From IMG/VR virus record IMGVR_UViG_3300023184_008416, positions 97,916-161,915 of that record: DNA of 64,000 nucleotides; one strand, written 5' to 3'. The notes beneath the pieces are model-generated. The model was given only the letters and a program-made list of their open reading frames with translations, did not search any database and was not told where the DNA came from. The DNA comes from a virus. Within the stretch, counting starts at the first letter, position 1. Each line of letters starts with the position of its first letter. The translations under genes and the position numbers were made by a program. Below, piece after piece: positions 17,222-53,923 of this stretch.

Positions 17222-17222
17222 C

Positions 17223-34654: not shown

Positions 34655-34732
34655 ATGTTTGCAGTAGTCATTGTCTTAACACTAATCCTATTTTTTATTA
34701 GAATTGTTGTTGACATGGATGGAGATGACTGA
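34655..34732 (+). CDS. 25-residue single-span membrane microprotein
   Basis: An ATG at 34655 opens 25 codons: MFAVVIVLTLILFFIRIVVD then MDGDD. That is one hydrophobic span with an acidic tail. It fits tightly between the preceding stop (34652) and the next ATG (34732), with a TGATG overlap, which argues that it is a real gene. Function unknown. Confidence 0.5.
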   Translation: MFAVVIVLTLILFFIRIVVDMDGDD

Positions 34733-35097
34733 TGAACAAGTTGCAAGACATGTGGGATCAACAGAAAAGTTTTATGGATCTTCTTCGGGAACACCGAAAT
34801 TTTCCTGCTTTTCCAGTTGATACGACGACAAAATCAGGACAAAAGATACTCAAAAGTATTACCCATGAATGTATGCATGAGCTTTTTGAAGCCAATCTTT
34901 TATTGAAGAATTCTAAAGAGCATCGGGCAACAAACATTTGTGAATTTGACAGAGAAAATTACGTTGAGGAACTAGCAGACGTTTTACACTATTTTTTTGA
35001 AATTGCAATTTTAAGTGGTATTTCTTTGGAAGAATTGTATTCAACTTATATGAAAAAGGGTGAAACAAATATTGTTCGCATAAAAGAAGGTTATTAA
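34732..35097 (+). CDS. All-alpha dCTPase/dUTPase-like NTP pyrophosphatase (T4 gp56-like)
   Basis: 121 residues. The metal-binding helices are ECMHELFEA (about 43-51) and EELADVLHYFFEI (about 82-94), the E..E and ExxD pattern of the dUTPase_2/MazG group. The C-terminal half, SGISLEELYSTYMKKGETN, closely resembles the end of T4 gp56 dCTPase-dUTPase, including the final GY. Since a trimeric dUTPase is already encoded at 24626, dCTP removal is a plausible main role. That would fit a phage replacing cytosine with a modified form. Confidence 0.72.
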   Translation: MNKLQDMWDQQKSFMDLLREHRNFPAFPVDTTTKSGQKILKSITHECMHELFEANLLLKNSKEHRATNICEFDRENYVEELADVLHYFFEIAILSGISLEELYSTYMKKGETNIVRIKEGY

Positions 35098-35156
35098 AAA
35101 AAGTGTATCATAGGCCTGTCCATTTTTGATAATGGATTTATCATAATCTTGTAACC

Positions 35157-35170
35157 GACGGTCAACCGTC
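35157..35170 (+). promoter_or_regulatory. Inverted repeat before hsp20
   Basis: GACGGT-CA-ACCGTC is a perfect dyad five bases before the AAGGAG ribosome site of the Hsp20 gene. It could be an operator or a leader hairpin controlling translation. Confidence 0.35.
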
Positions 35171-35187
35171 AAATAAGGAGAATGATA

Positions 35188-35553
35188 ATGTTTACCAGGT
35201 ATTATGATACCACTTCTACACGTTTGCCTATGCTCGATTTGCTTGACGCTTTCAAGGTTTTTGACGATATTGAAAAACCCATTGTTCGTTCCACGTCAAA
35301 TGTCATTGATGATTTTGGTGTGAAAGTTGAACTACCGGGTGTTAAAGTCTCAGATCTTGATATCAGCGTGGAAGGAAAAGTTCTTAAAGTGTCGGGTAAA
35401 TCTCGACATGGTAAAGAGTTTTCATATACCTACACGTTGAAATCTACCGTTGATGAATCTGCAATCACTGCAAATTTCCAAGACGGTTTGCTTGACATTT
35501 CTCTTCCCAAGAAACAAGAATCTGTTGCACGCAAGATTCAAATTAATACTTAA
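35188..35553 (+). CDS. Small heat shock protein, Hsp20/alpha-crystallin family
   Basis: 121 residues. I take the ATG at 35188, which is 7 bases after AAGGAG; the in-frame ATG at 35182 would be only 1 base away. The alpha-crystallin domain is clear: VKVELPGVKVSDLDISVEG, KVLKVSGKS, and a C-terminal DGLLDISLPK. A short flexible tail lacks a clear IxI motif. Phage Hsp20 proteins occur in cyanophages and other T4-like phages and probably hold unfolding proteins during infection. A strong terminator follows. Confidence 0.92.
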   Translation: MFTRYYDTTSTRLPMLDLLDAFKVFDDIEKPIVRSTSNVIDDFGVKVELPGVKVSDLDISVEGKVLKVSGKSRHGKEFSYTYTLKSTVDESAITANFQDGLLDISLPKKQESVARKIQINT

Positions 35554-35570
35554 AAGTTGATCAAAACATC

Positions 35571-35608
35571 ATAAGCCCAGAGACAAAAATTCTCTGGGCT
35601 TATTTTTT
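35571..35608 (+). terminator. Rho-independent terminator after hsp20
   Basis: ATAAGCCCAGAGA pairs perfectly with TCTCTGGGCTTAT (13 bp) around a seven-base loop, followed by six T. Confidence 0.95.
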
Positions 35609-35637
35609 GTCTATGTGTAAATTTCAATTATATATTG

Positions 35638-36057
35638 ATGGATCATATGACTCCCGAGCAAGACAAACATCTTTGTGAAAAGTATCCCAAGATATTCAAA
35701 AATCGAAATGGTTCCATCCAAGAAACCTGCATGGCCTGGGGCTTCGAGTGTGGCTCAGGATGGTTTGATATCATTGATGTGCTTTGCGAAGCCATTCAGG
35801 ACCACGTTGATGGAAAGACAAAACATCTTTCACCGGCAGAACAAGAGACTTTTCAAGTCGTTGCCAATCAAGTGAAAGAGAAATTTGGTGGGTTACGCTT
35901 TTATTGTTCGGGTGATGATGATCAGATTCAGGGAATGGTTGATATGGCAGAGCGAATGTCATACAAGACATGTGAAATGTGTGGACAACCTGGATCGGAA
36001 AGAAATTCTGGGTGGGTTGTTGTGCGTTGCGATGCATGTTATAAGAAAAAACCATGA
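35638..36057 (+). CDS. Conserved phage protein with zinc ribbon
   Basis: 139 residues from ATG 35638; ATG 35647 is an alternative and no ribosome site decides. It has the pattern EKYPKIFKNR, then GFECGSGWFDIIDVLCEAI, then VKEKFGGLRFYC, seen in many phage hypothetical proteins. A C-terminal CEMCGQ...CDAC pair probably binds zinc. Function unknown. Its stop overlaps the phosphoesterase start. Confidence 0.65.
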   Translation: MDHMTPEQDKHLCEKYPKIFKNRNGSIQETCMAWGFECGSGWFDIIDVLCEAIQDHVDGKTKHLSPAEQETFQVVANQVKEKFGGLRFYCSGDDDQIQGMVDMAERMSYKTCEMCGQPGSERNSGWVVVRCDACYKKKP

Positions 36058-36875
36058 AAATTGTGTGGTGCACCGACATTCATCTTGATTTTATCGATGA
36101 TTCAACGATCGAAAAAGGCGACCCAAAGTTACAAAGCTTTGCTAAATTGATATTGGGACATGCGCCCGATGCTGTCATGATTACTGGCGACATATCAATA
36201 TCACCTCAGTTAGAGCATCACCTTAACACTCTAGAAAATCTTTTACAGATTCCAATATTATATGTTCTTGGCAATCATGATTTTTATCATGGGTCAATTA
36301 AAGATGTACGTGATCTTGTGGTGAGACTCAATCATTCATCAAAATACTTGAAATGGGTGGGAGGGTTTGACTGTGTTAGATTGACACCAAATGTTGCGAT
36401 GGTCGGTCATGATTGTTGGTATGATGCCCTCAATGGATCTTGGCAATCATCTAGATCGTCCATGTCTGATTGGCAATTGATCAGTGAATTTAACACTTTG
36501 CGTAACATAGATTCAATCATTAATGTTGCTCGAGAGCTTGCGAAAGAGTCCGCAAATCACCTTGAAGCATCGTTGAACAGCGTAGCCAGAGATTTTAAAA
36601 CCGTGATGATTGTCACCCACGTTCCACCCTTCATAGAAGCCTGTTTGCAAGAAGGCAAATGCACCATTCCGAGTAATTTGCCATGGTATACGTGCTTAAC
36701 TGTGGGAAATCTTATTAAACGAATCGCGTCTAGTTATCCACAGACAACCTTTGAGGTGTATAGTGGACATACTCATGGTTTTGGTACGGCAAGATTGGCT
36801 CATAATTTAACTGCTTACGTTGGCAGATCAAGATATGGTAATCCTTCCGTTCAAGGAATTATTAGTCTAAAGTAG
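36054..36875 (+). CDS. Metallophosphoesterase (calcineurin-like)
   Basis: 273 residues. The five family motifs are present in order: DIHLD (about 6-10), GDIS (about 45), GNHDF (about 74-78), VTHVPPF (about 186) and SGHTHG (about 238-243), giving a two-metal site. Substrate is unknown; relatives hydrolyse nucleotides, cyclic nucleotides or nucleic acid ends. Starts with a four-base overlap with the preceding gene. Confidence 0.9.
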   Translation: MKIVWCTDIHLDFIDDSTIEKGDPKLQSFAKLILGHAPDAVMITGDISISPQLEHHLNTLENLLQIPILYVLGNHDFYHGSIKDVRDLVVRLNHSSKYLKWVGGFDCVRLTPNVAMVGHDCWYDALNGSWQSSRSSMSDWQLISEFNTLRNIDSIINVARELAKESANHLEASLNSVARDFKTVMIVTHVPPFIEACLQEGKCTIPSNLPWYTCLTVGNLIKRIASSYPQTTFEVYSGHTHGFGTARLAHNLTAYVGRSRYGNPSVQGIISLK

Positions 36876-36902
36876 GCTGATATTTATTAGTGGATTTCAA
36901 TA

Positions 36903-37460
36903 ATGAAAACATTGATGCTTGACTCAACGTGGCGTCCCATCAATTTCGTGAAACAGCACAGAGCTGTCATTATGTTGCTTGCTGGGAAAGTGGAATTGAT
37001 TACAGCTTGGGACGGTGAGGCAATCACTTCTCCGTCTTACAGTATGGAAGTTCCTGCTGTGATTCGTTTGAAACACTATGTGGGTGGTCGATTTGGACGT
37101 CCGAGGTTTAGAAGAAAAATTTTATTTACCCGTGATTCATGGTCTTGTCAATACTGTGCTGCAAAATTAGGTTGGAAGAATATTACAATTGATCACGTGA
37201 TTCCTAGATGTTCTGGTGGTAAAACTACATGGGAAAATTGCGTTGCTGCATGCTGGTCATGTAATGAAAAGAAAGGCAAAAAATCATTAAAAGAGGCGGG
37301 AATGAAATTACTGTCTCAACCCAAAGAACCAAAACCACAACATTTCTGGAATCTATATGATCACATAGATCATGACAGATGGCACCCAGAGTGGTCTGTG
37401 TTTTTAAAGACCGATCCAATCACAGTTGATGTTTTAAAAGATTATTTAGAAAATCCTTGA
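36903..37460 (+). CDS. HNH endonuclease
   Basis: 185 residues. The N-terminal MLDSTWRPINFVKQHRA and LAGKVELI and the C-terminal HNH site (CQYC, then TIDHVIPRCSGGKTTWENCVAACWSCN) match a widespread family of HNH proteins in phages and bacteria. Four Cys form the structural zinc site and His-Asn the active site. It lacks the zinc-finger and NUMOD modules of the homing endonucleases in this window, so packaging, DNA processing or host DNA degradation are also possible. Confidence 0.85.
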   Translation: MKTLMLDSTWRPINFVKQHRAVIMLLAGKVELITAWDGEAITSPSYSMEVPAVIRLKHYVGGRFGRPRFRRKILFTRDSWSCQYCAAKLGWKNITIDHVIPRCSGGKTTWENCVAACWSCNEKKGKKSLKEAGMKLLSQPKEPKPQHFWNLYDHIDHDRWHPEWSVFLKTDPITVDVLKDYLENP

Positions 37461-37516
37461 TCATAAAATCTTTATAAAATACAACTGAAAGACTATTTAG
37501 TACCTAGGAGTCTCAC

Positions 37517-38608
37517 ATGAGTCTTAAAGTTAGCCAATTACAAGAAATAGCGACTGGTATTAAGAAACAACAAACTTTGCTTGAAACTCTTAAGTCCGAA
37601 GTTTCTCACGTTTTGGGCCAACACATCTCTATTTCGCAAGGTTTAGAAGAGGCCTGTTACCAAGTCAATGATATCCTTGACGCCATGAAAATTAAGGGTG
37701 ATTTAACAGAGGTTCAATTTAAGACGTCCCTAGGCAAGAAATTGTTAGAATCACAATCGTCTGAGGCTCGAAGACTTGCTACTAGAACTTTGCCACGAAA
37801 TTTAATCACGAATCTTCGTTTTGATTCAGACAGATCTGTCAGAATTGAGGCCTGTCGCAGGCTTCCCAAAGATCTAGTTTTTGAAGTCGCAGAAAATTAT
37901 CCACGCGATTTTGAGCTAAAGTATATTGCCGAACAGAAAAAGAAAGAAGCAGACTCTCACCTTCACATGTATGATGAGAAGAGATTAGGTTCTGCCGCAA
38001 AACCCGAATTTCAATCAGAACTTAGTGATGTCTGGTATCGTGATATCGCAGCTAAATTTTTGCAAGATTATGGAACAAACATTGAGTACCAATGGGAAGA
38101 AATTCTGATCAATCGTTTTGTCGCGAGCTTAAAAGATTCAACAAGAGTTTTGGTCGACAAACAACGTCTTTATGATTCTTTGATGGAACTCATTAAAGAA
38201 AAAGAAGATAATGCGCTTCTCAAGGATGAGCAAAAGCACATTAGAAAATTAGTCAAGATGCGTGAAAACCGTGAAATTGAAGACGTTTCAGATACTTTCA
38301 ATTCTCTTTTGCGATCAGAAGCATCACAAGCGCAGTTTGTTTCAATGGTCAACGAGGCATTCAAAGTAAAAAAATCTTCACTGCCACCTGGAATTAGAAA
38401 ATATGCATCGTCTCCAGAAAACGTCCAACTCCCAACTAAGGCGACAATTCCAGGAGGGAAAATAACCTCTTTGGTCGAAAGAGTTCTTGATACCTATGTT
38501 TCCAAATGGAATGAATATCAAGCTCTAAAGGGTGAACCTATCAAAATTTCTTGGTATGAAGATCCCTCTGGAGAAGGTAAGGTTGGATTTAGCGCGGAGC
38601 TACGATAA
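37517..38608 (+). CDS. Unknown protein with HEAT/LRV-like segment
   Basis: 363 residues. The segment SEARRLATRTLPRNLI then DSDRSVRIEACRRLPKDLV (about 78-120) looks like leucine-rich-variant or HEAT repeats. The rest is charged and helical. ACCTAGGAG precedes the ATG. No catalytic motif was recognised. It is followed after one base by the Dps-like gene. Confidence 0.6.
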   Translation: MSLKVSQLQEIATGIKKQQTLLETLKSEVSHVLGQHISISQGLEEACYQVNDILDAMKIKGDLTEVQFKTSLGKKLLESQSSEARRLATRTLPRNLITNLRFDSDRSVRIEACRRLPKDLVFEVAENYPRDFELKYIAEQKKKEADSHLHMYDEKRLGSAAKPEFQSELSDVWYRDIAAKFLQDYGTNIEYQWEEILINRFVASLKDSTRVLVDKQRLYDSLMELIKEKEDNALLKDEQKHIRKLVKMRENREIEDVSDTFNSLLRSEASQAQFVSMVNEAFKVKKSSLPPGIRKYASSPENVQLPTKATIPGGKITSLVERVLDTYVSKWNEYQALKGEPIKISWYEDPSGEGKVGFSAELR

Positions 38609-38609
38609 A

Positions 38610-39149
38610 ATGGGATACTACGATAACATGAAGGTGTCACGCCCCACCCTGGCTTTGGTAGAAGCGATGTTGGCGTCTTCAAATGAACCTTATTTTCAGC
38701 TTCATGTAGTGCTTTCTTTTTTGAGATATCTTTACTTGTTGCACCAGACAAATCACTGGACTGCGAGCGGTGATCCTTATTACGGAGATCACCTTCTTTT
38801 TGAAAGATTATATACTGCAACTGTTGAAGAAATTGACGCTATAGGAGAAAAGGCTGTTGGATTAGGATCTCCACATCTGGTTAATTTAGACAGTCAATTA
38901 AAATCAGTTATGCTTATACAAGAGTCAAATCATCGCCACTATGTCATCCCGCGACCTGATGAGTTAGTCGATTCATCGTTGGTTGCTGAGGCTACGTTTC
39001 TTTGTTCCATGAAGTTAATTTGCGATTCGCTGAAATCTGACGGTCTCATGACGCACGGCCTAGATAATTTACTAGCCGGCATAGAAGACAAACACGAGGG
39101 TTCCCTCTATTTGCTAAAGCAAAGAGCACAATCAACTTTCATGGTTTGA
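38610..39149 (+). CDS. Dps/ferritin-like protein
   Basis: 179 residues. The segment LYLLHQTNHWTASGDPYYGDH (about 41-61), then LLFERLYTATVEEIDAIGEK, matches the Dps signature HWxxxGxxxxxxH...E....E.D.....E, which holds the intersubunit ferroxidase site. A later EDKHEGSLYLLKQ fits the final helix. Dps proteins store iron, remove peroxide and may coat DNA. GGAG lies 10 bases upstream of the ATG at 38610. The insertion around 105-135 makes it longer in the middle than classical Dps. A hairpin terminator follows. Confidence 0.72.
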   Translation: MGYYDNMKVSRPTLALVEAMLASSNEPYFQLHVVLSFLRYLYLLHQTNHWTASGDPYYGDHLLFERLYTATVEEIDAIGEKAVGLGSPHLVNLDSQLKSVMLIQESNHRHYVIPRPDELVDSSLVAEATFLCSMKLICDSLKSDGLMTHGLDNLLAGIEDKHEGSLYLLKQRAQSTFMV

Positions 39150-39177
39150 AGAACCAAAATATAAAGTAGTAAAAACT

Positions 39178-39209
39178 GAAGCCCCTGAGGTTATTTTCTC
39201 AGGGGCTTC
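39178..39209. terminator. Bidirectional terminator between converging genes
   Basis: GAAGCCCCTGAG pairs perfectly with CTCAGGGGCTTC (12 bp) around an eight-base loop, between a plus-strand and a minus-strand gene. The flanking T tracts are short, so efficiency is uncertain. Confidence 0.7.
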
Positions 39210-39223
39210 TTATATTCAACAAT

Positions 39224-39783
39224 TCAATTCTTTTTTGAAGGCCACTTGCCAGTAGCCTGTTTTATTCTTTTTGCTACAAGACCTTCTGGGCTTTTGACTT
39301 TAATACCCTTGTCTTTTACCTTTTTTACTTTTCCTGCAAAAGTTTTTGCATCTAAACCTTTTAGGAAATTTTTTGCTGATTGTTTCTCTCCGGTTTTTTT
39401 GCTGTTTTCTTCTTTTTACCTTCGGAAAGTGCGTGCGAGTATCCACAATTTTCGCAAACATCTTCATACATGGTACCGCCACATTCTGAACAACCAACAC
39501 CTTCAGAATAACCACATTCATCACAAACATCTTCATCCATCATTCCACCACATTCAGGGCAACCTAATGCATTATTATATCCACAAATCTGGCAATCATC
39601 ACCCAATAATTGGGTTCCACACTCTGGACACCCACCCATACACGCCTGGCAAGTACCGCAGTTACAAACTTCAACCGCAGGCATTTCTAATTCAGCTCGT
39701 ACATCTGGAACACCGTTAAAAGTAGGCATATCTCCTGCGTGAGATCCCCAGGTTGCTATCATTTCACGTAATGCATTTTTCAT
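39224..39783 (-). CDS. Multi-zinc-ribbon protein with apparent -1 frameshift
   Basis: The zero frame runs from ATG 39783 to a stop at 39361 (140 residues). It begins MKNALREMIATW, a leader-like helix, and carries repeated ribbons (CNCGTCQAC, CPECG, CQICG, CPECGG, CDECG, CSECGG, CENCG). At 39394-39400 the mRNA reads GCA AAA AAA C. A -1 slip there enters a frame open for 56 more codons to a TGA at 39224-39226, which encodes a basic, well-behaved domain (KNFLKGLDAKTFAGKVKK, KRIKQATGKWPSKKN). The fusion would have 186 residues. Either programmed frameshifting or a one-base length change in the A run explains this. Confidence 0.65.
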
Positions 39784-39837
39784 GTGAATTAATTATCCTG
39801 TACTTTAAGACAAATCTGAATAAGTTATAAAAAACTA

Positions 39838-40794
39838 ATGCGTCATATACTCATCACAGGTTCAGCTGGATTTTTAGGCAGCCATCTTGTTTTGCACCAT
39901 GTTTCGCAGGGTGATCGAGTTTATGGGGTTGACAACTATTCTTCATCAAAACCCTTGTCGCCACATCACAGAAAAATTATCAAAGAATGTGGCGACAAAT
40001 ATCTCTTCTCTGTCGCTGATATTTCAAATCCAGAATTTCCAAGATTGTTCAAGGACATTTCTCTGGATGTCATTTATAATTTTGCATGCCCTGCGTCTCC
40101 ACCACGTTATCAAAACATTCCCATTGAAACAATGATGACTTGTGTTGCTGGAACACGAAACGTTTTAGCAACTGCTCGACACAAGACAACAGTTGTTCAC
40201 GCATCAACTTCGGAAGTTTACGGAGATCCTCAGGTTTCGCCCCAGACAGAAACTTATCGTGGTCAGGTCAATTCCTATGGTCCTAGATCTTGTTACGACG
40301 AAGGAAAACGTGCGGCAGAAGCACTGTGTTATGATTACCGTCACAAACACGGAATTGATGCAAGACTTGTCAGAATTTTTAATACCTACGGTCCACATAT
40401 GGACATTGAAGATGGTCGAGTGGTCACCAATTTTATTGGCCAAGCGTTGAGAGGCGAATCATTGACAATTTATGGTGACGGCTTACAAACACGTTCCTTT
40501 TGTTACGTTGACGATTTAATTCGAGGAATTACTGCACTGGCACAACTACCAGAAAATCCCGGAACCCCTGTTAACGTAGGAAATCCAAATGAATTTACAA
40601 TAGAGGAATTGGCTCTGAAGATACAAAAAATTTTTGGATCTAAAATTGAAAATCGTCCTTTACCGGTGGATGATCCCATGCAACGTAGGCCTGATATTTC
40701 AGTCGCTAAAAAGTTATTCAATTGGGAACCGGTCGTTCAATTAGACGAAGGCCTATATAAGACTATAGAATATTTCAAAAGTATCAACGTTTAA
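39838..40794 (+). CDS. UDP-glucuronate decarboxylase-like NAD-dependent sugar nucleotide enzyme
   Basis: 318 residues. The Rossmann motif GSAGFLGS lies at 8-15. The catalytic YxxxK occurs as SCYDEGKR within YGPRSCYDEGKR, the form typical of UDP-xylose synthases (SDR extended family). TSEVYGDP and DDPMQRRPDIS also match. It would convert UDP-glucuronate to UDP-xylose. With the epimerase at 50664 and the glycosyltransferase at 49355 it may make a sugar donor for DNA or surface glycosylation. Confidence 0.88.
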   Translation: MRHILITGSAGFLGSHLVLHHVSQGDRVYGVDNYSSSKPLSPHHRKIIKECGDKYLFSVADISNPEFPRLFKDISLDVIYNFACPASPPRYQNIPIETMMTCVAGTRNVLATARHKTTVVHASTSEVYGDPQVSPQTETYRGQVNSYGPRSCYDEGKRAAEALCYDYRHKHGIDARLVRIFNTYGPHMDIEDGRVVTNFIGQALRGESLTIYGDGLQTRSFCYVDDLIRGITALAQLPENPGTPVNVGNPNEFTIEELALKIQKIFGSKIENRPLPVDDPMQRRPDISVAKKLFNWEPVVQLDEGLYKTIEYFKSINV

Positions 40795-40795
40795 T

Positions 40796-41116
40796 ATGTC
40801 AGAACTTATAATCTCCTTGCTTCTTTATTTGACTGCGCTTTTGGTAGGTTTCCTAATTGGAAGAACCACAGCACCAGTTACTGGTTCAAGAACGCAAAAC
40901 AGTGAATCAGAAGTTTCAAATATCGACGCAAAAGGTTCTTTCTTTAAACCTGAAAAACGTGAAAAAAAAGTTGTGAAAATAGATGATTCTACTTTTGTCA
41001 CCAACGTATCCTCAGATTCGTTAGAGAAAAAAGGAAATGATCTAGGGACTGAGTCATCAGTAGAAGATGACGTAGGATCGTCAGTATCTAAACTTGCACA
41101 ATTAAAGAAAAAATAA
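40796..41116 (+). CDS. Single-span membrane protein, unknown
   Basis: 106 residues. Residues 3-22 (ELIISLLLYLTALLVGFLIG) form one membrane span; the rest is charged and low complexity. It starts two bases after the preceding stop and precedes the actin-like gene, so it could be a membrane partner of that filament protein. That link is only by position. Confidence 0.55.
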   Translation: MSELIISLLLYLTALLVGFLIGRTTAPVTGSRTQNSESEVSNIDAKGSFFKPEKREKKVVKIDDSTFVTNVSSDSLEKKGNDLGTESSVEDDVGSSVSKLAQLKKK

Positions 41117-41141
41117 ATTCGAAGGAAACAGGAGAAAAAAC

Positions 41142-42146
41142 ATGGCTAAAGGTCTCGACGTCGGAACATCATTCATCGTCCTCGCATCCGAGGGCGTCAA
41201 AGGTAAAGTCAACTATAAAGATTTTAGAGATGCATTCTATGTCATCAAACCAACAACGCCCATCGCAACCAAAATGATTGAAAAAGGTCTTACCGGAAAA
41301 GTCTTCGTCAAAGACGCTGACGGATCCTTCATCATCCTCGGCAAAGACGCTATTGAAAAAGCAGTTGAACGTAACGATTCCGCAAAACGTCCTATGTTTA
41401 AAGGAGTCGTTTCGTCCAAGGAAAAGGACGCTCGCCGTATCCTCACTTACATCCTTAAAGAAGTTGTTGGTACCCCTTCAGAACCGGGAGAAAAATTGGT
41501 GTTCTGTGTTCCAGCACAACCAGTCGATCAGGAAGACGATGATTTTGATGTCGGTTATCACGAGGACGTCATTGTTAAACTTCTTTCGGAAGTTGGTTAT
41601 TCAGCCCGAGCCATCAACGAGGCCGAAGCACTTTGCTACTCAGAACTTGATAAAGACGATTATACTGGTGTCGCTCTTTCGTGGGGTGCAGGTATGGTCA
41701 ACGTTTGTGTAATGCTCAACGGTGAACCAGTCGTCACCTTCTCCACAACAAAGTCGGGTGATTGGGTCGATCGCATGGCCTCCGTCGCCACTGGTGAACC
41801 TGACTCTATCGTCCAGGCTGAGAAAGAAAATGGAGACTTCACCGTCGGTGAGCCCAACGAAAATCAAGTCCTCTCTGCCGTGGCTTCATACTACGATCGT
41901 CTTATTGATTATACCACGAAGCAGTTGACAGCCGCGATGGACGGTCACAAATCAATTCCCAAATTCAATGATCCTTTGCCAGTCATCGTAGCCGGTGGTA
42001 CCTCGAAGCCCAAGGGATTTGTGGATCTATTCTCCAAGAAATTAGAGGCAAATGGTTTCCCGTTGCCAGTCAAGGAAGTCCGTCACGCCGCCGATCCGCT
42101 ACATGCCGTGGCTCGTGGTTGTCTCATCGCCGCCCAGGTCATGTAA
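41142..42146 (+). CDS. Actin/Hsp70-fold ATPase
   Basis: 334 residues. Actin-fold signatures are visible: phosphate-1 KGLDVGTSFIVLA (3-15), a connect-like INEAEALCYSE (about 157-167), phosphate-2 VALSWGAGMVNVCVM (about 176-190) and the adenosine motif PVIVAGGTSKPKGF (about 283-296). Phosphate-2 is unusual, with SWGAG in place of DxGGG. Codons are strongly biased to C or G at third positions, like the tail tube gene, which points to high expression. A filament that moves or positions phage DNA or virions is possible; a chaperone-like ATPase is the alternative. AGGAAACAGGAG precedes the ATG; a terminator follows. Confidence 0.75.
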   Translation: MAKGLDVGTSFIVLASEGVKGKVNYKDFRDAFYVIKPTTPIATKMIEKGLTGKVFVKDADGSFIILGKDAIEKAVERNDSAKRPMFKGVVSSKEKDARRILTYILKEVVGTPSEPGEKLVFCVPAQPVDQEDDDFDVGYHEDVIVKLLSEVGYSARAINEAEALCYSELDKDDYTGVALSWGAGMVNVCVMLNGEPVVTFSTTKSGDWVDRMASVATGEPDSIVQAEKENGDFTVGEPNENQVLSAVASYYDRLIDYTTKQLTAAMDGHKSIPKFNDPLPVIVAGGTSKPKGFVDLFSKKLEANGFPLPVKEVRHAADPLHAVARGCLIAAQVM

Positions 42147-42175
42147 TCAAACTTGAAAATAACTTAGCTTAGGTC

Positions 42176-42206
42176 AAAAGGCTCCTGGTGACGGGAGCCT
42201 TTTTAT
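42176..42206 (+). terminator. Terminator between converging genes
   Basis: AAAAGGCTCC pairs with GGAGCCTTTT around an eight-base loop, with A and T runs on the two sides, so it can work in both directions. Confidence 0.88.
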
Positions 42207-42220
42207 TTGTGATTTTTTGA

Positions 42221-42727: not shown

Positions 42728-42793
42728 GCCAGATAACTATGGTGAAATTTATGTTGTGTAATGTTACACTTTAAGTTGTTAATATGGTGTTAA

Positions 42794-46414: not shown

Positions 46415-46415
46415 A

Positions 46416-47177: not shown

Positions 47178-47225
47178 TTAAACAAATGGCAAATTTTGAG
47201 GTAGTTTTTAAACACTTGAGGCAAA

Positions 47226-47822
47226 ATGTCAAAGAAACTTAAAGAGTATAATGCTGATTACGAAAGAAACACTTATGATTCAGATTATTATGAAAATCAC
47301 GTGAAGTATTATCAGAAAGGGATTCCACATTTTGTCTCATTTTTGAATGAGAATTTGAAGTTTGATTCTCTCTGTGATTTAGGTTGTGGTACAGGTGCTT
47401 TTAGTGCACCTCTTCAGGTTGACAAGGACGTTTTGGGAATCGATTTTTCTGTAGGTTCTGAGAAAGTGACCTTTCTTGATCCCAAGAATTTTAGGTTGGG
47501 AGACTTGACTCAGCCTCTTAATCTAGGAAGATCATTTGACGTGGTGATGTCTTTAGAGGTTTGGGAACATTTACTACCACAATGTGAAGCGGCTTATTTG
47601 AACAATGTTTTTGCCTTGCATCCCAAGACTCTGATTATTAGTTGTGCTCCTCCTGGTCAGTGGGGTCGTCATCATTACACGCCAAGAAATGGTGAAGAGG
47701 TTGTGCAAATTATTGAATCAAGAGGTTATAAGTTAAATCAGGCTTTGACAGATAAATTTAGAGTAATTCCTAAATTGGCGTCATTCTATCGTAAGAATAC
47801 TTTTATTTTTGACAAAGTTTGA
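47226..47822 (+). CDS. Class I SAM-dependent methyltransferase
   Basis: 198 residues. Motif I LCDLGCGTGAF (about 52-62), the acidic end of strand 2 LGIDFS, and the SLEVWEHL segment (about 111-118) place it in the small-molecule/sugar/lipid methyltransferase group. DNA methylase motifs such as DPPY are absent. It lies among sugar and nucleotide genes, so a sugar or modified base are possible substrates. Confidence 0.82.
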   Translation: MSKKLKEYNADYERNTYDSDYYENHVKYYQKGIPHFVSFLNENLKFDSLCDLGCGTGAFSAPLQVDKDVLGIDFSVGSEKVTFLDPKNFRLGDLTQPLNLGRSFDVVMSLEVWEHLLPQCEAAYLNNVFALHPKTLIISCAPPGQWGRHHYTPRNGEEVVQIIESRGYKLNQALTDKFRVIPKLASFYRKNTFIFDKV

Positions 47823-47839
47823 AAGGAAAGGAAAGGTTG

Positions 47840-48379
47840 ATGTCTTCTCACCAGACAATCGTTTTTTTGATTGGTCCCGATCGTTGTGGTAAGTCTAATA
47901 TTGCCAAAGAATTATCTAAAAGGACGCAAATTCCTTATTTTAAACCTTCTGAGGAGAAGTTAACGTTCATAAACAATCAATCAAAATTTTTTATGGACAT
48001 ACGGTATGCAGATCCCAGAATGGTTGATTTTTTGAAACAGACAAGTCACAGTGTAGTTTTTGACAGGGGTTACCCCTGCGAGTGGGTTTACAGCAGATTT
48101 TTTAATCGTGAGACAGACTTGGCTGCAATTCAACACGTTGATAGTATGCACTCTAGCATGGGAACCAAGCTGGTGATAACTTATCGTTCACATTATGATA
48201 ATGTAGTTGACGATCTCGATCCTAAATTAACGGGCGCCAAGTTATCTCAGCTTGAAAATTTGTATCGTGATTTTGCTAAATGGTCACAGTGTCAGTCTAT
48301 GTTTTTAAATGTTGATTCTGAAGACCTGAATGATCAGGTTAATAAAGTCATTGAATTTTTGCAAGGTGGTGACAAATGA
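47840..48379 (+). CDS. Second P-loop (deoxy)nucleotide kinase-like protein
   Basis: 179 residues from ATG 47840 with AAAGG before it. P loop LIGPDRCGKSNIAKEL (about 11-26) resembles that of the dTMP kinase at 32778. VVFDRGYPCEW (about 72-82) is the DR motif. It could phosphorylate the 5-modified dCMP expected from the enzyme at 51619, like T4 gp1, but that is inferred from context. Confidence 0.75.
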   Translation: MSSHQTIVFLIGPDRCGKSNIAKELSKRTQIPYFKPSEEKLTFINNQSKFFMDIRYADPRMVDFLKQTSHSVVFDRGYPCEWVYSRFFNRETDLAAIQHVDSMHSSMGTKLVITYRSHYDNVVDDLDPKLTGAKLSQLENLYRDFAKWSQCQSMFLNVDSEDLNDQVNKVIEFLQGGDK

Positions 48380-48567
48380 CTTACGAATATGCGTGTAAGT
48401 GTTGTAATCACACCTTCGAAGAAGAACAATCCATTAAGGATGAACCTCTTAGCACCTGTCCTAAGTGTCAAGTCACAGGAGTATTGCGAAGGTTAATCAG
48501 TAGCGGCAATTTCATTCTCAAAGGAGGAGGATGGGCTGCCGATAACTACTCCGGGAAGTCTTCCTGA
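48376..48567 (+). CDS. FmdB-type zinc ribbon protein
   Basis: 63 residues. MTYEYACKCCNHTFEEEQSI, then CPKCQ and LRRLISSG, is the FmdB/CxxC...CxxC small zinc ribbon pattern. Function in phages is unknown; a regulatory role has been proposed for the family. It overlaps the previous gene by four bases and the 3' end of the convergent gene at 48493 by 75 bases. Confidence 0.8.
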   Translation: MTYEYACKCCNHTFEEEQSIKDEPLSTCPKCQVTGVLRRLISSGNFILKGGGWAADNYSGKSS

Positions 48568-49281
48568 TTTGTCTACAGAAATGATCTTACCTGCCACATT
48601 TTTGCTTGTTCTGGCTGCAGGATGGGCGGGTTTAAAAAGATAGTGAGCTTCTTCTTCATCTTTGCTACCAAAGATTGATTTGACGTCGCCTGTTTCACTG
48701 TTAAAAATTACGTTATATCCACCCTTTGATAGCGTGAGAGGGGCCTTAAGTTTGGAAAGGAAGTCATAGCGTGGAGCACTTTTCATGGCGGAGTCAAACC
48801 AAACGTCCAATACGAAATTGGAGACACTGACGGGAGTGTTGTTTACTGTAATTTCGTAGCAATCGTTTTCTACAGGATCACAGACTTCTACGGCAACGAA
48901 AGTTACATCTCCTCGGTTTGCCCACATGTTGACATAGGGATTGTAGAATGTTTCTAAGATTTCATGTGATAAAACGACAGAGATTGATTTTGCACCGTTC
49001 ATGATCGTGCCGCCGTGGTCTAACACCGGAGAAACGAAAACTCTGCCCCAAACATTTCCATTGGGGTCTTGTGTGTGATATCCCAGGGCACCTGCATGAT
49101 CAGCGTTATCGAATATTCCAATAGTAAAACCGTCGTCACCTCCAACTTTCACGTCCCAGGGTAATCTTTCGAAGAGAGGAGCTGCGTCTCTTGTCAACTG
49201 AACTTTACAAGCTTCTACCATAAGAGATAAATCAGTGTCACTAACTTTGTTAGAGTGATTAACGATATTGAAGGTTCGCAT
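48493..49281 (-). CDS. Putative zinc metallopeptidase-like protein
   Basis: 262 residues. The motif VVLSHEILETFYNPY (about 102-116), followed by FVAVEVCDPVENDCYEI, is that of a phage/bacterial group with SHExLE active-site-like helices, probably zinc-dependent. VSNFVLDVWF also fits. No signal peptide. Its 3' end overlaps the FmdB gene on the other strand. Host or virion target unknown; a structural, inactive member is possible. Confidence 0.65.
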   Translation of the reverse strand: MRTFNIVNHSNKVSDTDLSLMVEACKVQLTRDAAPLFERLPWDVKVGGDDGFTIGIFDNADHAGALGYHTQDPNGNVWGRVFVSPVLDHGGTIMNGAKSISVVLSHEILETFYNPYVNMWANRGDVTFVAVEVCDPVENDCYEITVNNTPVSVSNFVLDVWFDSAMKSAPRYDFLSKLKAPLTLSKGGYNVIFNSETGDVKSIFGSKDEEEAHYLFKPAHPAARTSKNVAGKIISVDKSGRLPGVVIGSPSSSFENEIAATD

Positions 49282-49284
49282 AAT

Positions 49285-49294
49285 CTTAAGTATC
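49285..49294 (-). promoter_or_regulatory. Candidate promoter element GATACTTAAG, minus strand
   Basis: Read on the minus strand, a perfect GATACTTAAG ends 3 bases before the ATG of the gene at 49281. It is the same string as at 7650. TATAAAT lies a little further upstream at about 49301-49308. The close spacing would make a nearly leaderless mRNA, so its role is uncertain. Confidence 0.28.
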
Positions 49295-49354
49295 TTAAAT
49301 TTATAAATGATTTTTTAGGTGTAGAGAATTTGTTTTGTGGAGTATGATAATTGT

Positions 49355-50641
49355 ATGACACGTTTATTGATTCAAACGCAACTTTCAAATTATGACACCT
49401 CGGGTCGTTTCATTCTGGAAGCTGATTCAGGGTGGCAGATGACTATGGGCCGTGTTCGACAAATGTTGAAACTTGTGCCAGATTTGTCAATTGATGTCAT
49501 GGGTCCGACAGAGTCACAATTGATTACGGTACCTCAAAAACTAAATGCCGATCTTTTTCAACAGTATGAAGGACGATTGAGGTATGTGCCTCATCACATT
49601 TTGCCAAATGCCCTGGCCACGCGGTTTGATTTTGATTTTAATGGTGTTGGTCGTGCGCTGGATTTAAACGTGAACAACAAATATGACTGTGTTTATGTGA
49701 ATGACCCGATGCAACTACGAAATCTCAAGGTTTTATTTCACTTAAAGGGTGGATATCAACCTAAATTTTTTGTTCATTCACACTTTATTGACAACCCTGA
49801 ATGTCCCAAATTTCCGACAGACACTTCTCTTTGGTTAGGTCAATGTGAAGCTGCCATGCGCGCAGATTATAATTTTTGGCAGTGTGAATCATCGATGAAC
49901 GTTTTCTTTGATTCATTTGCGCGAGTTTTTAACAATGATTCACTTGCCATGGTGAAGGCAAAGTCATCACCATGGGATGATGGTTATTCTTTGGATGAGA
50001 TTAATTCTCGTATTGATGTAAAAAATTGTCGTTTTGATTTAAACGATTTCAAGCAATTGACTGCAGGAAAGGTTGTCATCTTTGTTCCCAACAGAATCGG
50101 GGGAAAAGGAAAATCAAGTGATTATACGAATTGTGGCAAATTTATGTTTGAAATACTCCCAGTTCTTCGTAGATTGAGGCAGGATTTTGTGGTGATTGCC
50201 GGAAATCCAAATCAAAAGTTTTCAAATCAGGAGTTGGTTGAGACGTGCGGTAAAAATGGTTATTTGTCTTTGGTCCCTGATGCATTGACAAGAGATGAGT
50301 TTAAACTTGTCGTGAAGAACAGTGATATTGCCGTTGGTCTTTATGATCAAGACAGTTATGGTGGGACAGTAGCACGAGAGTGTGTTGATTTGGGATGTTT
50401 ACCTTTGTGGATTGACAATTATGAGTATTCGGCAATTGCCAAAGATGCCGGGTATGATATGCTTGCTAAATCCGATTTTTCTGACATTGTTGATACAACT
50501 GATAGATTAATTGACATTGTTCGATCACTTGGCCTATACAAGTCAAAATTTGTTGAAAAGATTCGCAAGGTTGTTAGAGCAAGATGTTCCTACGAAGAGA
50601 CAACACCCTTTGCACTGGAAAAAATGGGTTTATTGGTTTAA
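49355..50641 (+). CDS. Glycosyltransferase, GT-B type (putative)
   Basis: 428 residues from ATG 49355 (GTG 49337 also in frame). The C-terminal half has the pattern of GT-B enzymes: VVIFVPNRIGGKGKSSDYT, LRRLRQDFVVIAGNP, and near the end SDIAVGLYDQDSYGGTVARE, which is like the nucleotide-sugar binding E-x7-E region. The next gene makes a sugar nucleotide. T4-like phages use such enzymes to glycosylate hydroxymethylcytosine. Transfer to DNA is plausible given the neighbouring dCMP-HMase-like gene, but a surface sugar target cannot be excluded. Confidence 0.7.
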   Translation: MTRLLIQTQLSNYDTSGRFILEADSGWQMTMGRVRQMLKLVPDLSIDVMGPTESQLITVPQKLNADLFQQYEGRLRYVPHHILPNALATRFDFDFNGVGRALDLNVNNKYDCVYVNDPMQLRNLKVLFHLKGGYQPKFFVHSHFIDNPECPKFPTDTSLWLGQCEAAMRADYNFWQCESSMNVFFDSFARVFNNDSLAMVKAKSSPWDDGYSLDEINSRIDVKNCRFDLNDFKQLTAGKVVIFVPNRIGGKGKSSDYTNCGKFMFEILPVLRRLRQDFVVIAGNPNQKFSNQELVETCGKNGYLSLVPDALTRDEFKLVVKNSDIAVGLYDQDSYGGTVARECVDLGCLPLWIDNYEYSAIAKDAGYDMLAKSDFSDIVDTTDRLIDIVRSLGLYKSKFVEKIRKVVRARCSYEETTPFALEKMGLLV

Positions 50642-50663
50642 TTTGTCAACAATAAAGGAATTT

Positions 50664-51617
50664 ATGAAAGTACTTGTGACAGGTGCAGCTGGTTTTATTG
50701 GAAGTAATTTATCAAAACGTTGCGTAGAAGAGGGTTGGGATGTGACTGGCATTGATGATTTATCCAATGGTCACATACAATTTGTGCCGAAGGGTGTCGA
50801 GCTTTTACAGTCAGATTTTAGTAGTGATAACGTGAAATCTCGGCTTGAAAAGCAATCCTATGATGTTGTATTACATCTTGCTGCTTGCCCCCGGGTAAGT
50901 TATTCCGTAGAACATCCGTTTGAAACAAACGATATTAATGTGACAAAGACTTTAAAGTTGATGAATTATTGTCGTGGCAACGTGAGTCGTTTTGTTTTTG
51001 CTTCTTCTTCGGCTATTTATGGTAACGTAGAAGAACTTCCCACAAAGGAAACGTGTCACAAAAATCCTCAATCTCCTTATGCTTTACAAAAATTGATCAT
51101 TGAAGGTTATCTTAAGTTGTATAATGATTTATATGGTATGGATTCTGCGTGTCTTCGATTTTTTAATGTTTTTGGTTCAAATCAACTTGGTGATTCTCCT
51201 TATGCAACCGCAGTTTCTGCATGGCTTAATGCAGTAAATCGTGGTCAATCAATGAGATCAGACGGCGATGGGTCTCAGACCCGAGACATGTGTCATGTTG
51301 ATAATGTTGTAGAAGCGTGCATTTTGGCTGCAAAAACACCAGTCAAGTTGAATGCAGAACCTTTTAACGTTGCCTGTGGTGAGAGAACGTCTAATAAAGA
51401 CATTTTAAAATATTTGTTGTCCAGATATCCTGAGGCAAAGTATCATGATTCTCCTTGGAGGCCCGGGGATGTCATGCATACACAGGCGGACATAACAAAA
51501 ATTCACGATGTTTTAGGATATAAACCCCTTGTTTCTTTTTGGGACGGTCTAGAATCGACCATAGAATGGTACGAAGAAAATTGGGAATTGGTTAGTGGTA
51601 TGAAACTTCGGACTTGA
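50664..51617 (+). CDS. NAD-dependent UDP-sugar 4-epimerase-like enzyme
   Basis: 317 residues from the ATG at 50664, with AAAGGAA before it. Rossmann motif TGAAGFIGSN (6-15). Catalytic Ser in FASSSAIYG and YxxxK as PYALQKL. DGSQTRDMCHVDNVVEA and WRPGDVMHTQADI match the WbpP/UDP-GlcNAc 4-epimerase group. It could epimerise UDP-xylose to UDP-arabinose or UDP-Glc to UDP-Gal. It is adjacent to a glycosyltransferase and a dCMP-HMase-like gene. Confidence 0.87.
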   Translation: MKVLVTGAAGFIGSNLSKRCVEEGWDVTGIDDLSNGHIQFVPKGVELLQSDFSSDNVKSRLEKQSYDVVLHLAACPRVSYSVEHPFETNDINVTKTLKLMNYCRGNVSRFVFASSSAIYGNVEELPTKETCHKNPQSPYALQKLIIEGYLKLYNDLYGMDSACLRFFNVFGSNQLGDSPYATAVSAWLNAVNRGQSMRSDGDGSQTRDMCHVDNVVEACILAAKTPVKLNAEPFNVACGERTSNKDILKYLLSRYPEAKYHDSPWRPGDVMHTQADITKIHDVLGYKPLVSFWDGLESTIEWYEENWELVSGMKLRT

Positions 51618-51618
51618 C

Positions 51619-52608
51619 ATGAAGAATTTTTCTAATTTCACAGAAGCTTATCGAGAGCTGCTTCAAGATGTCTATACCAATCCAGATTTTGAATCTGCAC
51701 CGCGAGGTCAGAAAATTAGGGAAAAATTAGGTTTTACTTTTAAGTTGACAAACCCTCGTAATCGATTACCATATCTTTTGGGTAGAGACTACAGCGCTGC
51801 TTATTTTATTGCAGAATCATTGTGGTATCTTTCAGGGAGTGATTCGACAGACTGGATTGCAAACTACAGTGGTTTTTGGCGTAATATTTCTGATGATGGT
51901 GTTACAGCAAACAGCGCTTATGGTGCAAGAATTTTTAAATCACATCCAAGAATTGCCCAAGGAATTAAACCCCAATGGTCACAATGGGATTACGTAATTG
52001 ATGAATTGTGCTCAGATAATGATTCTAGGCGAGCGGTAATTCACATTAGGTCGCCACAAGACTCAATTTTGGCACACAAGGATGTTCCCTGTACTTTAAC
52101 TCTGCAGTTTTTTCTACGTAATGATAAGGTACACATGGTCACTTCAATGAGATCTTCTGATCTCATCTTGGGAATTGCATATGATGTACCTGCTTTTACT
52201 TTGTTTCAGGAATTATTGGCTCTACAACTTTCAAAACGTTTAAACAAACCTATTGGATTGGGTGATTACACACATATCAGTAATTCTCTTCACATTTATG
52301 AACGTCACTTTGAAATGGTTGAGCAAATTTTAAATTCTCATTTGTCTTCAAACATTTTAGAAATGCCAGATTTACCGTCTGATGCTGTTCCTCTTGGATC
52401 ACTTTTAAGTTTGGAATCAAAGATAAGAAAAGCCCCTGTTGAGGATTTAAAAACTATTTTATCAGCTTCAACTGAGCTAGGACAATATTGGGGTGATTGG
52501 TTAATTTTACTTGCTTCACATCGTGCAGGCAAATTAAATTCTTCTAAAGAACAAAATTTGTTGTTACAAAGCACAAATTTTGAAGGATATAGATTTTTTA
52601 ACAAGTGA
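51619..52608 (+). CDS. ThyA-family enzyme, probable dCMP hydroxymethylase
   Basis: 329 residues. The TS fold is clear: SRRAVIHIRSPQDS (phosphate-binding Arg137-Arg138), catalytic Cys158 in DVPCTLTLQF, and MRSSDLILGIAYDVPAF (177-193), then the conserved GDYTHISNSLHIYERH. Thymidylate synthases have Asn in LGxPFN; here the aligned residue is Asp189 (LGIAYD). In T4 gp42 an Asp at this place selects dCMP over dUMP. The phage has ThyX for dTMP, which removes the need for ThyA. The product is predicted to be 5-hydroxymethyl-dCMP; a 5-methyl-dCMP product is the alternative. Confidence 0.8.
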   Translation: MKNFSNFTEAYRELLQDVYTNPDFESAPRGQKIREKLGFTFKLTNPRNRLPYLLGRDYSAAYFIAESLWYLSGSDSTDWIANYSGFWRNISDDGVTANSAYGARIFKSHPRIAQGIKPQWSQWDYVIDELCSDNDSRRAVIHIRSPQDSILAHKDVPCTLTLQFFLRNDKVHMVTSMRSSDLILGIAYDVPAFTLFQELLALQLSKRLNKPIGLGDYTHISNSLHIYERHFEMVEQILNSHLSSNILEMPDLPSDAVPLGSLLSLESKIRKAPVEDLKTILSASTELGQYWGDWLILLASHRAGKLNSSKEQNLLLQSTNFEGYRFFNK

Positions 52609-52616
52609 GGTTTGCC

Positions 52617-53189
52617 ATGAATCCTGAATTTATTATTTTTTGCGGTCCCATGTTTTCAACTAAAACAAGCATGTTACTTCTTATGCTTGAAAAATACAAG
52701 CATCAAAAGAAAAGATGCGTTGTTTTTAAGCCAATGATTGATGATCGATACTCTAAAGATAAAGTTGTTTCACACGGAGGAGCTTCGATATCCTCAGTTG
52801 TTGTTTCGTCCGGAAGTGATGTTTTAAAGCATTTGTCGGAGCTTAATGATCAGCCTCAAGTAGTTGCAATAGATGAAGCATTCATGATACCCGGGATTGC
52901 CGAGGTCGCAAATTACCTTTATCGTTTGGGTATTACGATTGTTGTTTCAACCCTGGATATGTCTGCGAATGGAAAGCCCTTTGAAGAACCCCAATTGATG
53001 ATGCCTTGGGCAACTCAAATTCATAAGTTAGCTTCTGTTTGTACAGTTTGTGGTGCAAATGCTCATTACACTCACAAAAAAGTGGATGGTGGCAATGAAA
53101 TTGAGGTTGGGAGTCATGAAATTTATGAACCAAGGTGCTTTTTTCACCACGCAATTGTGAACAATAAACCTAATTTACACCATGAGTAG
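52617..53189 (+). CDS. tdk: Thymidine kinase, type II (Tdk)
   Basis: 190 residues from ATG 52617 with GAGG six bases before it. P loop CGPMFSTKTSMLL (about 8-20), Walker B-like VAIDEAFMI, and a zinc site made by CTVCG and a later C...H match type II thymidine kinase. The Ser-Thr-Lys P loop (GPMFSTKT) is the family form. It salvages thymidine. Its 3' end overlaps the dCMP deaminase start. Confidence 0.92.
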   Translation: MNPEFIIFCGPMFSTKTSMLLLMLEKYKHQKKRCVVFKPMIDDRYSKDKVVSHGGASISSVVVSSGSDVLKHLSELNDQPQVVAIDEAFMIPGIAEVANYLYRLGITIVVSTLDMSANGKPFEEPQLMMPWATQIHKLASVCTVCGANAHYTHKKVDGGNEIEVGSHEIYEPRCFFHHAIVNNKPNLHHE

Positions 53190-53616
53190 ACCTACTTGGC
53201 CTGAAACCTGGATGACAATTGCACGCTCAATTGCCGAGCGCTCTTATGATCCACGTCTGAAAGTTGGTACAATCATTGTTACCGAGGATAACACACAGAT
53301 GTTATCAATGGGATATAATGGGAATTACAAAGGTGGTCCACATGAACCTGAGTCTTTTGAGCTGGGAAGCAGCGGGTTTATTCATAGTGAAATTAATGCT
53401 TTATTAAAGTGCGATTATCACCACCCATTGAAAAAGCATATGTATATCACGCATTCACCGTGTCGATCTTGTGCCAAGTGCATTATCAATGGTGGAATAC
53501 GAAGAGTAGTTTATGATGTACAATATCGTGATTTATCTGGAATAGAGTTATTAAGAGACGTAGGTGTCGAAATATATAGTCTGTCTGAGGCAATACTTAT
53601 TGCAGGTTTACCATGA
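53182..53616 (+). CDS. dCMP deaminase
   Basis: 144 residues. Zinc-binding HSEINALL (about 71-78) and SPCRSCAKCI (about 93-102) plus the general fold match deoxycytidylate deaminases (T4 Cd family). It converts dCMP to dUMP for ThyX. In a phage with modified cytosine it also helps to draw down free dCMP. It is coupled by overlap to genes on both sides. Confidence 0.92.
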   Translation: MSRPTWPETWMTIARSIAERSYDPRLKVGTIIVTEDNTQMLSMGYNGNYKGGPHEPESFELGSSGFIHSEINALLKCDYHHPLKKHMYITHSPCRSCAKCIINGGIRRVVYDVQYRDLSGIELLRDVGVEIYSLSEAILIAGLP

Positions 53617-53912: not shown

Positions 53913-53923
53913 AAGGTACTAAG

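Follow-up and report, generated by a model that had tools for sequence, protein, structure and literature searches.

Does the virus behind IMG/VR record IMGVR_UViG_3300023184_008416 replace the cytosine of its DNA with a sugar-bearing base and, if it does, which sugar would the base carry? The question is raised by a gene set in a 64,000-nucleotide stretch, positions 97916-161915 of the 161,915-base virus record (hereafter the window), in which a candidate glycosyltransferase (GT), a UDP-sugar epimerase-like protein and an enzyme resembling T4 gp42, a dCMP hydroxymethylase, are encoded side by side. A sequence-only reading had described a dispersed gene set for glycosylated, possibly pentosyl, 5-hydroxymethylcytosine (hmC). 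All eight open reading frames (ORFs) that it named were present, with boundaries identical or within a few codons. The core, however, proved to be compact, with the genes for the GT, epimerase, gp42-like enzyme, thymidine kinase and dCMP deaminase forming one same-strand, operon-like run at 49355-53616 (gaps of 22, 1, -4 and -8 bp). Collectively, the data indicate that the cytosine of the phage DNA is probably replaced by sugar-bearing hmC. This is well supported by inference, and its direct support in the sequence consists of the enzyme classes, a cytosine/deoxy/hydroxymethyl active-site pattern, the predicted GT fold and a conserved neighbourhood.

A scan of viral_contigs with a nine-row GT alignment yielded 15 related loci, among which L056 and L057 are apparently near-copies. 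Together with the window they make up 16 records, and two GT-bearing records found later (G019 and G020) lie outside all counts. We found that the GT, epimerase and gp42-like genes occurred together in 15/15 loci within a span of at most about 6.6 kb, and because the set recurs in this way the grouping is more than chance. The second nucleotide kinase and the DnaE polymerase were each present in 14 of the 15 loci, the fifteenth starting within the GT, while dCMP deaminase was detected in 14 (one locus stops early) and thymidine kinase in 13. At the level of records, the gp56-like pyrophosphatase was found in 15/16, the sole exception being a 31-kb fragment, and ThyX in 12/16. DnaE of the window shared less than 60% identity with each phage record that matched it (1,347 in all, with identities of 25-30% in the 12 listed), and by this comparison no close isolate is known. 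In four relatives (L044, L048, L050 and L054) DnaE is encoded by two ORFs separated by about 1-3 kb, a split that may reflect inteins, introns or homing insertions.

To define the base, we examined the active site of the gp42-like enzyme, whose nearest solved sequence was the CMP hydroxymethylase MilA (E 9e-43). The preference of MilA for ribose has been assigned to Lys133 and Ala176, and its recognition of cytosine to Asp186 (PMC5175136). The alignment placed Arg, Ser and Asp at these three positions of the window enzyme, which lacks the ribose residues of MilA and, by sequence, has the deoxycytidylate combination. The enzyme carries E66, W87, S99, Y101, R137, R138, D155, C158, S179, D181 and D189, and it was identical to T4 gp42 at 15/15 tabulated positions, as were 16/16 related sequences (14 from GT-bearing records, L057 having been dropped as a near-copy, plus the relatives L099 and L139 described below). 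The T4-type dCMP hydroxymethylase signature is present, namely D189 for cytosine, S179 with R137/R138 for the deoxy sugar, and D155-x-x-C158 with S99-x-Y101 for hydroxymethylation (in T4 numbering, Asp D179; Ser169/Arg; Asp145-x-x-Cys148; Ser94-x-Tyr96). The T4 gp42 work itself proposes an Asp three residues before the catalytic Cys, together with Ser-x-Tyr, as the hydroxymethylase signature (PMC6400193). The more distant enzymes of phage G and LR756500 differed from T4 at two and one of the 15 positions, respectively. SPO1, a dUMP enzyme, and Pseudomonas phage QdP_Psa3 have Asn at the specificity position, in contrast to Asp in the window. Among phage contigs obtained by an experimental selection for modified cytosine, residue 177 of thymidylate synthase (TS) was mostly Asp, and PRA-PH and dCMP-deaminase domains co-occurred with TS (PMC8670742).

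Further evidence came from the company that the enzyme keeps. The window has a separate route to dTMP through ThyX and a TMP-kinase-like protein, and thymidylate supply does not depend on the gp42-like enzyme. Classic TS and ThyX were reported to be anticorrelated in jumbo phages (PMC7824862), and the presence of both ThyX and a TS-like enzyme here fits a TS-like enzyme with another job. We also found two TS lineages in the module. The window type occurred in six records (window, L044, L049, L051, L055 and L058; 48-63% identical to that of the window) and a T4-gp42-like type in eight (28-31% identical), with L054 divergent at 34%. Both lineages have the same active site, and the GT tree suggested 2 swaps between them, a loose count with a bootstrap range of 1 to 3. 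That the function was kept while the enzyme was exchanged argues that the module needs dCMP hydroxymethylation.

The GT was then considered as the enzyme that would decorate this base. Searches of Pfam, PHROGs, NCBIfam, PDB sequences and 50,697 phage records (INPHARED, E 0.01) returned nothing significant for it. A model built from a 15-row alignment (mean predicted local distance difference test score 89.9, predicted template modelling score 0.88) matched BshA (Z 29.1, 3.6 A over 355 residues) and the retaining enzyme MshA (Z 27.0) with full-length coverage in VIA-align, and a Foldseek search returned E 1e-12. The model therefore confidently predicts the GT-B architecture that had been read from the sequence, with a GT4-like fold of two Rossmann-like domains over the full length, and the fold neighbours include retaining enzymes. 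Arg247, Asp333 and Glu342 were invariant in 15/15 alignment rows, in what we take to be the donor-binding region of GT4 enzymes. T4 alpha-glucosyltransferase (AGT) and beta-glucosyltransferase (BGT) were not among the 50 fold-search matches listed, which does not exclude a fold match. The viral fold list was topped by a glycosyltransferase of Arthrobacter phage Kitkat, and an annotated cyanophage DNA alpha-glycosyltransferase at rank 49 was too weak to use. We dropped the acidic charge of the GT (isoelectric point 5.85) as an argument against a DNA substrate, since T4 AGT (6.1) and RB69 ORF003c (6.3) are also acidic, unlike the basic T4 BGT (9.05). A two-pattern scan of bacterial genomes gave 56 pattern stretches and no GT relative, although distant relatives could escape it. 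An alternative GTG start lies at 49337; the ATG at 49355 is where the alignment of most relatives begins. In one of the records found later, the GT homologue (G020:C1:104146-105447; L179) is interrupted by one TGA. Judging from its position in the module, the GT would act on the hydroxymethyl group in DNA.

This position was occupied differently in two relatives. L099, from a 298-kb record reached through a search with the UDP-xylose synthase (UXS), encodes between a kinase-like gene and TS a protein (16934-18700) that scores above cut-off for both O-carbamoyltransferase domains, at the location of the GT in L051, L055 and L058. It is followed by a 221-aa protein (18684-19349) that by eye looks like a degenerate TS and has no Pfam match. 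No homology between this kinase-like gene and the kinase at 47840 was detected, and no GT homologue was found across the 298 kb. An enzyme with such domains acts on 5hmC in DNA and on 5hmdCTP (PMC8670742), the likeness to the L099 protein being one of domains. In L139, the kinase and epimerase genes have no gene between them. Just upstream, UXS shares 4 bp with the gene for another glycosyltransferase (PF13524), and this pair is followed by a helicase-like gene (by eye), the kinase, the epimerase and a window-type TS. Between that TS and thymidine kinase lies an IMP dehydrogenase/GMP reductase-family gene (L139:16213-17274; PF00478 E 2e-99). Judged from position, these exchanges suggest that the GT slot is a place for enzymes that decorate hmC.

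We wanted to gain insight into the sugar donor. The enzyme at 39838, described before as UDP-glucuronate decarboxylase-like, is by sequence a genuine UDP-xylose synthase: the next family after human UXS1 scored only 4e-33, and STSE, YDEGK (YxxxK) and QTR, presumably the catalytic motifs of UXS, were aligned. A UXS orthologue was present in 11/16 records including that of the window, always upstream of the GT, on its strand and 5-20 kb from it; in L099 it lies 30 bp from the pyrophosphatase gene. A nucleotide-sugar dehydrogenase of 321 aa, for which UDP-glucose as substrate is a guess, is encoded on the record of the window, and the family scored above cut-off in 7/16 records. Because most relatives have a true UXS in this region and the record also holds a dehydrogenase gene, a pentose donor is about as likely as a hexose, and we regard the pentose as an even call. 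The gate residue of the epimerase was uninformative as a predictor of the sugar, being Thr in 15/15 aligned module epimerases and in both epimerase types. Of the earlier proposal, hmC with a dedicated glycosyltransferase is upheld by the residues, the neighbourhood and the L099 carbamoyltransferase, while the pentose is plausible only. The more specific proposal is tentative and, as a whole, somewhat doubtful: pentosyl-5-hydroxymethylcytosine carrying xylose or arabinose, with a donor route at least partly encoded by the phage (UXS and 4-epimerase, perhaps fed by the dehydrogenase of the phage), a family of DNA glycosyltransferases new to science and a decorating enzyme that is exchanged in the wider group.

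Several observations weigh against these readings. All the evidence is drawn from genes of uncultured phages, not from DNA chemistry. After MilA, TS (E 2e-16) ranked above T4 gp42 (E 1e-10), and because overall similarity gives this order the hydroxymethylase assignment rests on residues. The GT profile gave no significant best-domain score to T4 AGT (-5.2 bits) or BGT (-2.7 bits), and it did not report RB69 ORF003c. Carbamoyltransferases were also found away from the module in two GT-bearing records, G003 and G015, so the family has other uses. The dehydrogenase belongs to a separate glycan cluster some 117 kb away from UXS, was above cut-off for a subfamily model only and had no match to the UDP-binding C-terminal domain. 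UXS was not found in 5/16 records, of which four are fragments and one is the 267-kb G003. The nearest relative, G001, has the stretch from pyrophosphatase to GT with no UXS in it, and an extra GalE-like enzyme directly follows its GT. The L099 record keeps UXS and epimerase and has no counterpart of the GT, nor was another glycosyltransferase recognised by eye in its adjoining 17 kb. In a UXS scan of viral contigs (best 80 of 276 matches kept, many of them short fragments, with flanks of at most 10 kb), TS lay within the flanks in 3/80 loci and GT in 3/80. UXS in viruses at large is therefore no marker of base modification, although these counts are too low, at least 10 of the 80 loci lying in GT-bearing records. 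Finally, the closest named PDB sequences to the epimerase were WbgU (E 3e-49), WbpP (1e-43) and UDP-glucose 4-epimerase (2e-42), enzymes that act on hexoses or N-acetylhexosamines.

The points on UXS and the epimerase favour a variant of the same hmC route in which the sugar is a hexose (galactose, glucose or N-acetyl-hexosamine). The enzyme at 50664 would then epimerise host UDP-Glc or UDP-GlcNAc for transfer by the GT, and UXS would serve the glycan cluster or another step. The epimerase, in the GT-gp42 stretch in 15/15 loci, is indeed the more constant partner of the GT. However, UXS lies in the replication/modification region, away from the glycan cluster, and overlaps a glycosyltransferase gene in L139, and in G003, G006 and G009, which lack UXS, the epimerase is less like that of the window (41-44% identity, against 50-65% elsewhere). 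We consider the hexose variant possible; since it is a form of the sugar-hmC reading, their probabilities overlap.

The glycan cluster itself (G000:C1:15735-34040; L067, L068) is large, lies outside the window on the minus strand and contains several glycosyltransferases, the nucleotide-sugar dehydrogenase, GDP-fucose-synthase-like and Gmd-like proteins, FkbM-type methyltransferases and a GT11-like protein, all but the dehydrogenase named by eye from sequence. Its presence raises the alternative that GT, epimerase and UXS build a surface glycan (of the virion, the host envelope or lipopolysaccharide), with the gp42-like enzyme making plain, unglycosylated hmC. GT4 folds are common in envelope biosynthesis, and the GT is GT4-like by model; in addition, cultured Aphanizomenon phage Yong-DA carries UXS in a polysaccharide context. 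This explanation is nevertheless unlikely. The GT, epimerase and gp42-like genes adjoin one another in the window and lie close together in all related loci, the GT had no significant similarity to the four cluster proteins taken by eye as glycosyltransferases, the bacterial scan gave no GT relative, and in L099 an O-carbamoyltransferase replaces the GT.

The pentosylated phage cytosines described in PMC13390438 and PMC12838424 are of the 5-hydroxycytosine kind, and the gp42-like enzyme could by analogy be an RB69-type 5-hydroxy-dCMP synthase yielding a sugar-O-cytosine that lacks the methylene carbon. We compared T4 with RB69 ORF048c and Thanatos TH1_062, both of which we infer to be 5-hydroxy-dCMP synthases, and derived from these two sequences five common differences, A, T, E, N and V at T4 positions 82, 94, 145, 171 and 175. 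Positions 82 and 171 are folate contacts in T4, and Thr94 and Glu145 are tolerated as hydroxymethylase variants (PMC6400193), so positions 94 and 145 alone do not discriminate. The window enzyme and 16/16 relatives keep the T4-like W, S, D, D and G. With the T4 residue kept at all five positions, the base made by the gp42-like enzyme is, by sequence, most likely 5-hydroxymethylcytosine, and the 5-hydroxy-dCMP alternative becomes very improbable. Least credible of all is a plain thymidylate synthase amid ordinary nucleotide metabolism, the name given by library annotation, as the specificity position is Asp rather than Asn, ThyX is present in the window and most records, and the scores fall far under the NCBIfam thymidylate synthase cut-offs.

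Under the favoured reading, sugar-bearing hmC, the pathway may be outlined as follows. The gp56-like pyrophosphatase would remove dCTP, perhaps also dUTP, and the gp42-like enzyme would convert dCMP, methylene-tetrahydrofolate and water into 5-hydroxymethyl-dCMP. The second kinase would begin its phosphorylation, and the DnaE polymerase would incorporate the hydroxymethylated nucleotide in place of cytosine. The GT-B enzyme would then move a sugar from a UDP donor onto the hydroxymethyl group in DNA, the transfer probably being retaining with an alpha linkage. The adjacent epimerase would supply the donor, which may be a UDP-pentose (xylose, or arabinose after 4-epimerisation) or alternatively a hexose; the finished base may protect the DNA from host nucleases. 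The genes concerned are listed below.

Table 1. Predicted genes of the proposed cytosine-modification system and associated nucleotide metabolism (window coordinates).
Feature	Coordinates	Strand	Evidence
Glycosyltransferase, GT-B fold, GT4-like, proposed hmC (DNA) glycosyltransferase	49355..50641	+	predicted model; 15 viral loci
UDP-sugar 4-epimerase-like short-chain dehydrogenase, YxxxK present	50664..51617	+	PDB sequence matches; 15/15 loci
Predicted dCMP hydroxymethylase, TS superfamily, MilA-like lineage	51619..52608	+	active-site residues
Thymidine kinase (accessory, salvage)	52605..53189	+	Pfam TK E 4e-38
dCMP deaminase (accessory)	53182..53616	+	phrog_174 E 4e-46
Second nucleotide kinase, proposed hm-dCMP kinase	47840..48379	+	phrog_761 E 8e-9
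UDP-glucuronate decarboxylase / UDP-xylose synthase (UXS)	39838..40794	+	human UXS1 E 1e-85
gp56-like dCTP/dUTP pyrophosphatase	34732..35097	+	dUTPase_2 27.4 bits, cut-off 22.9
ThyX	32122-32781	+	TIGR02170 thyX 102.1 bits, cut-off 87.9
TMP-kinase-like protein	32778-33362	+	dTMP kinase E 6e-13, under that model's cut-off
Class-I methyltransferase, doubtful module member	47226..47822	+	Methyltransf_23 E 1e-8

Among the accessory genes, the product of 34732 is an all-alpha NTP pyrophosphatase. A profile of 14 family members detected T4 gp56 (31.9 bits best domain, in a search that had no dUTPase control), pointing to homology with T4 gp56 and to dCTP and/or dUTP as the predicted substrate. The gp56 kinship read earlier is thus borne out, and the sequence family does not distinguish the dCTPase claimed with it from a dUTPase. 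The dCMP deaminase and the TS-superfamily enzyme with dCMP-hydroxymethylase residues are as had been named. The second kinase matched phage nucleotide kinases weakly, and the matched family (phrog_761) also holds the annotated thymidylate kinase of RB69. For the methyltransferase, once suggested to decorate the sugar, that role is not supported: next to the kinase, 2/15 loci have a homologue of it, in both cases a weak one (27 and 30% identity). In the window, UXS ends 8.6 kb and the pyrophosphatase 14.3 kb upstream of the GT. Near the dCMP deaminase lies a gene for an Fe/Mn superoxide dismutase (53909-54649), which is kept in 14/15 loci (one stops early) and for which a DNA-modification module offers no obvious reason. 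Elsewhere we noted an actin/ParM-like ATPase by eye (window 41142-42146; no PHROG match) and, just upstream of the window, a neighbouring pair of proteins, alike in appearance and each about 1000 aa long, that seem tail-sheath-like by eye (G000:C1:91282-94329 and 94375-97401).

Comparison with known systems revealed the closest logic in the glucosyl-hmC system of T4, which has equivalent base enzymes, identical tabulated hydroxymethylase residues and a homologous gp56. The window differs in its glycosyltransferase of no recognised sequence family, its own epimerase and UXS, the MilA-like hydroxymethylase lineage, the DnaE polymerase and ThyX. RB69 and Thanatos share with the window a TS-superfamily enzyme beside sugar genes and a pentose on cytosine, which for the window is a proposal. 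RB69-type phages are described as placing arabinose on 5-hydroxycytosine by means of a TS-superfamily synthase, and the same report calls the earlier arabinosyl-hmC of RB69 erroneous (PMC13390438), so the precedent to which the sequence-only reading appealed is outdated. In Thanatos the pentose is bound directly through oxygen (PMC12838424). The candidate sugar genes of RB69 are of NTP-transferase/isomerase type and Thanatos has a UDP-xylose pyrophosphorylase (PMC12838424); the 10 phage records that carry UXS at E 1e-60 include neither phage. Their TS-family enzymes also differ from that of the window, and the candidate RB69 transferase was not found by the GT profile. Uxs with a 4-epimerase was proposed in 2018 as one possible source of UDP-arabinose in RB69 (PMC6024577). 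The window shows Uxs and epimerase genes near a predicted dCMP hydroxymethylase, and a survey made mostly at the level of titles, with the most relevant recent work outside its scope, recognised no other literature on the idea; no link was drawn to a paper on Tunturi virus.

Three further systems are partly alike. The 5hmC carbamoyltransferase phages of MetaGPA have TS with Asp177, dCMP deaminase and PRA-PH co-occurring (PMC8670742); the window differs in having a glycosyltransferase, and its record gave no Carbam_trans_N match. The full route had seemed new for a DnaE-type phage, a novelty lessened by a partial parallel in Bacillus phage G (gp313-gp319-gp329), where a DnaE-like polymerase, a TS-like enzyme (31.6% identical) and an annotated alpha-glucosyltransferase lie within about 13 kb. 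Phage G differs in that tblastn found no GT homologue, UXS gave no match at E 1e-60 and the TS-like enzyme departs from T4 at 2/15 positions. Cultured QdP_Psa3 (PV055685) is an independent parallel, with 9 kb that hold a TS-family enzyme, UXS and a UDP-glucose dehydrogenase; its Asn at the specificity position makes the enzyme probably a dUMP enzyme of the 5-hydroxymethyluracil (hmU) type, and its two GT-like proteins have no significant similarity to the GT of the window. QdP_Psa3 is in its own right a candidate sugar-modified hmU phage (2691-11540 and 108748-112633), two GT-like genes flanking a dehydrogenase-like gene.

If correct, the sugar-bearing hmC reading would take cytosine hypermodification past the T-even phages into a large group of uncultured phages that differs in its polymerase, its hydroxymethylase lineage and a glycosyltransferase found in no library searched. 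Pentosyl-hmC, if true, would be new chemistry, a true example of the kind of base that RB69 was said to carry before its arabinosyl-hmC was reassigned. The locus offers a concrete enzyme set for such a base, which bears on how phages escape restriction, CRISPR-Cas and DNA-glycosylase defences, and may provide new DNA-labelling enzymes. Furthermore, the exchange of decorating enzymes at a single genomic site would illustrate how the chemistry of phage DNA becomes diverse.

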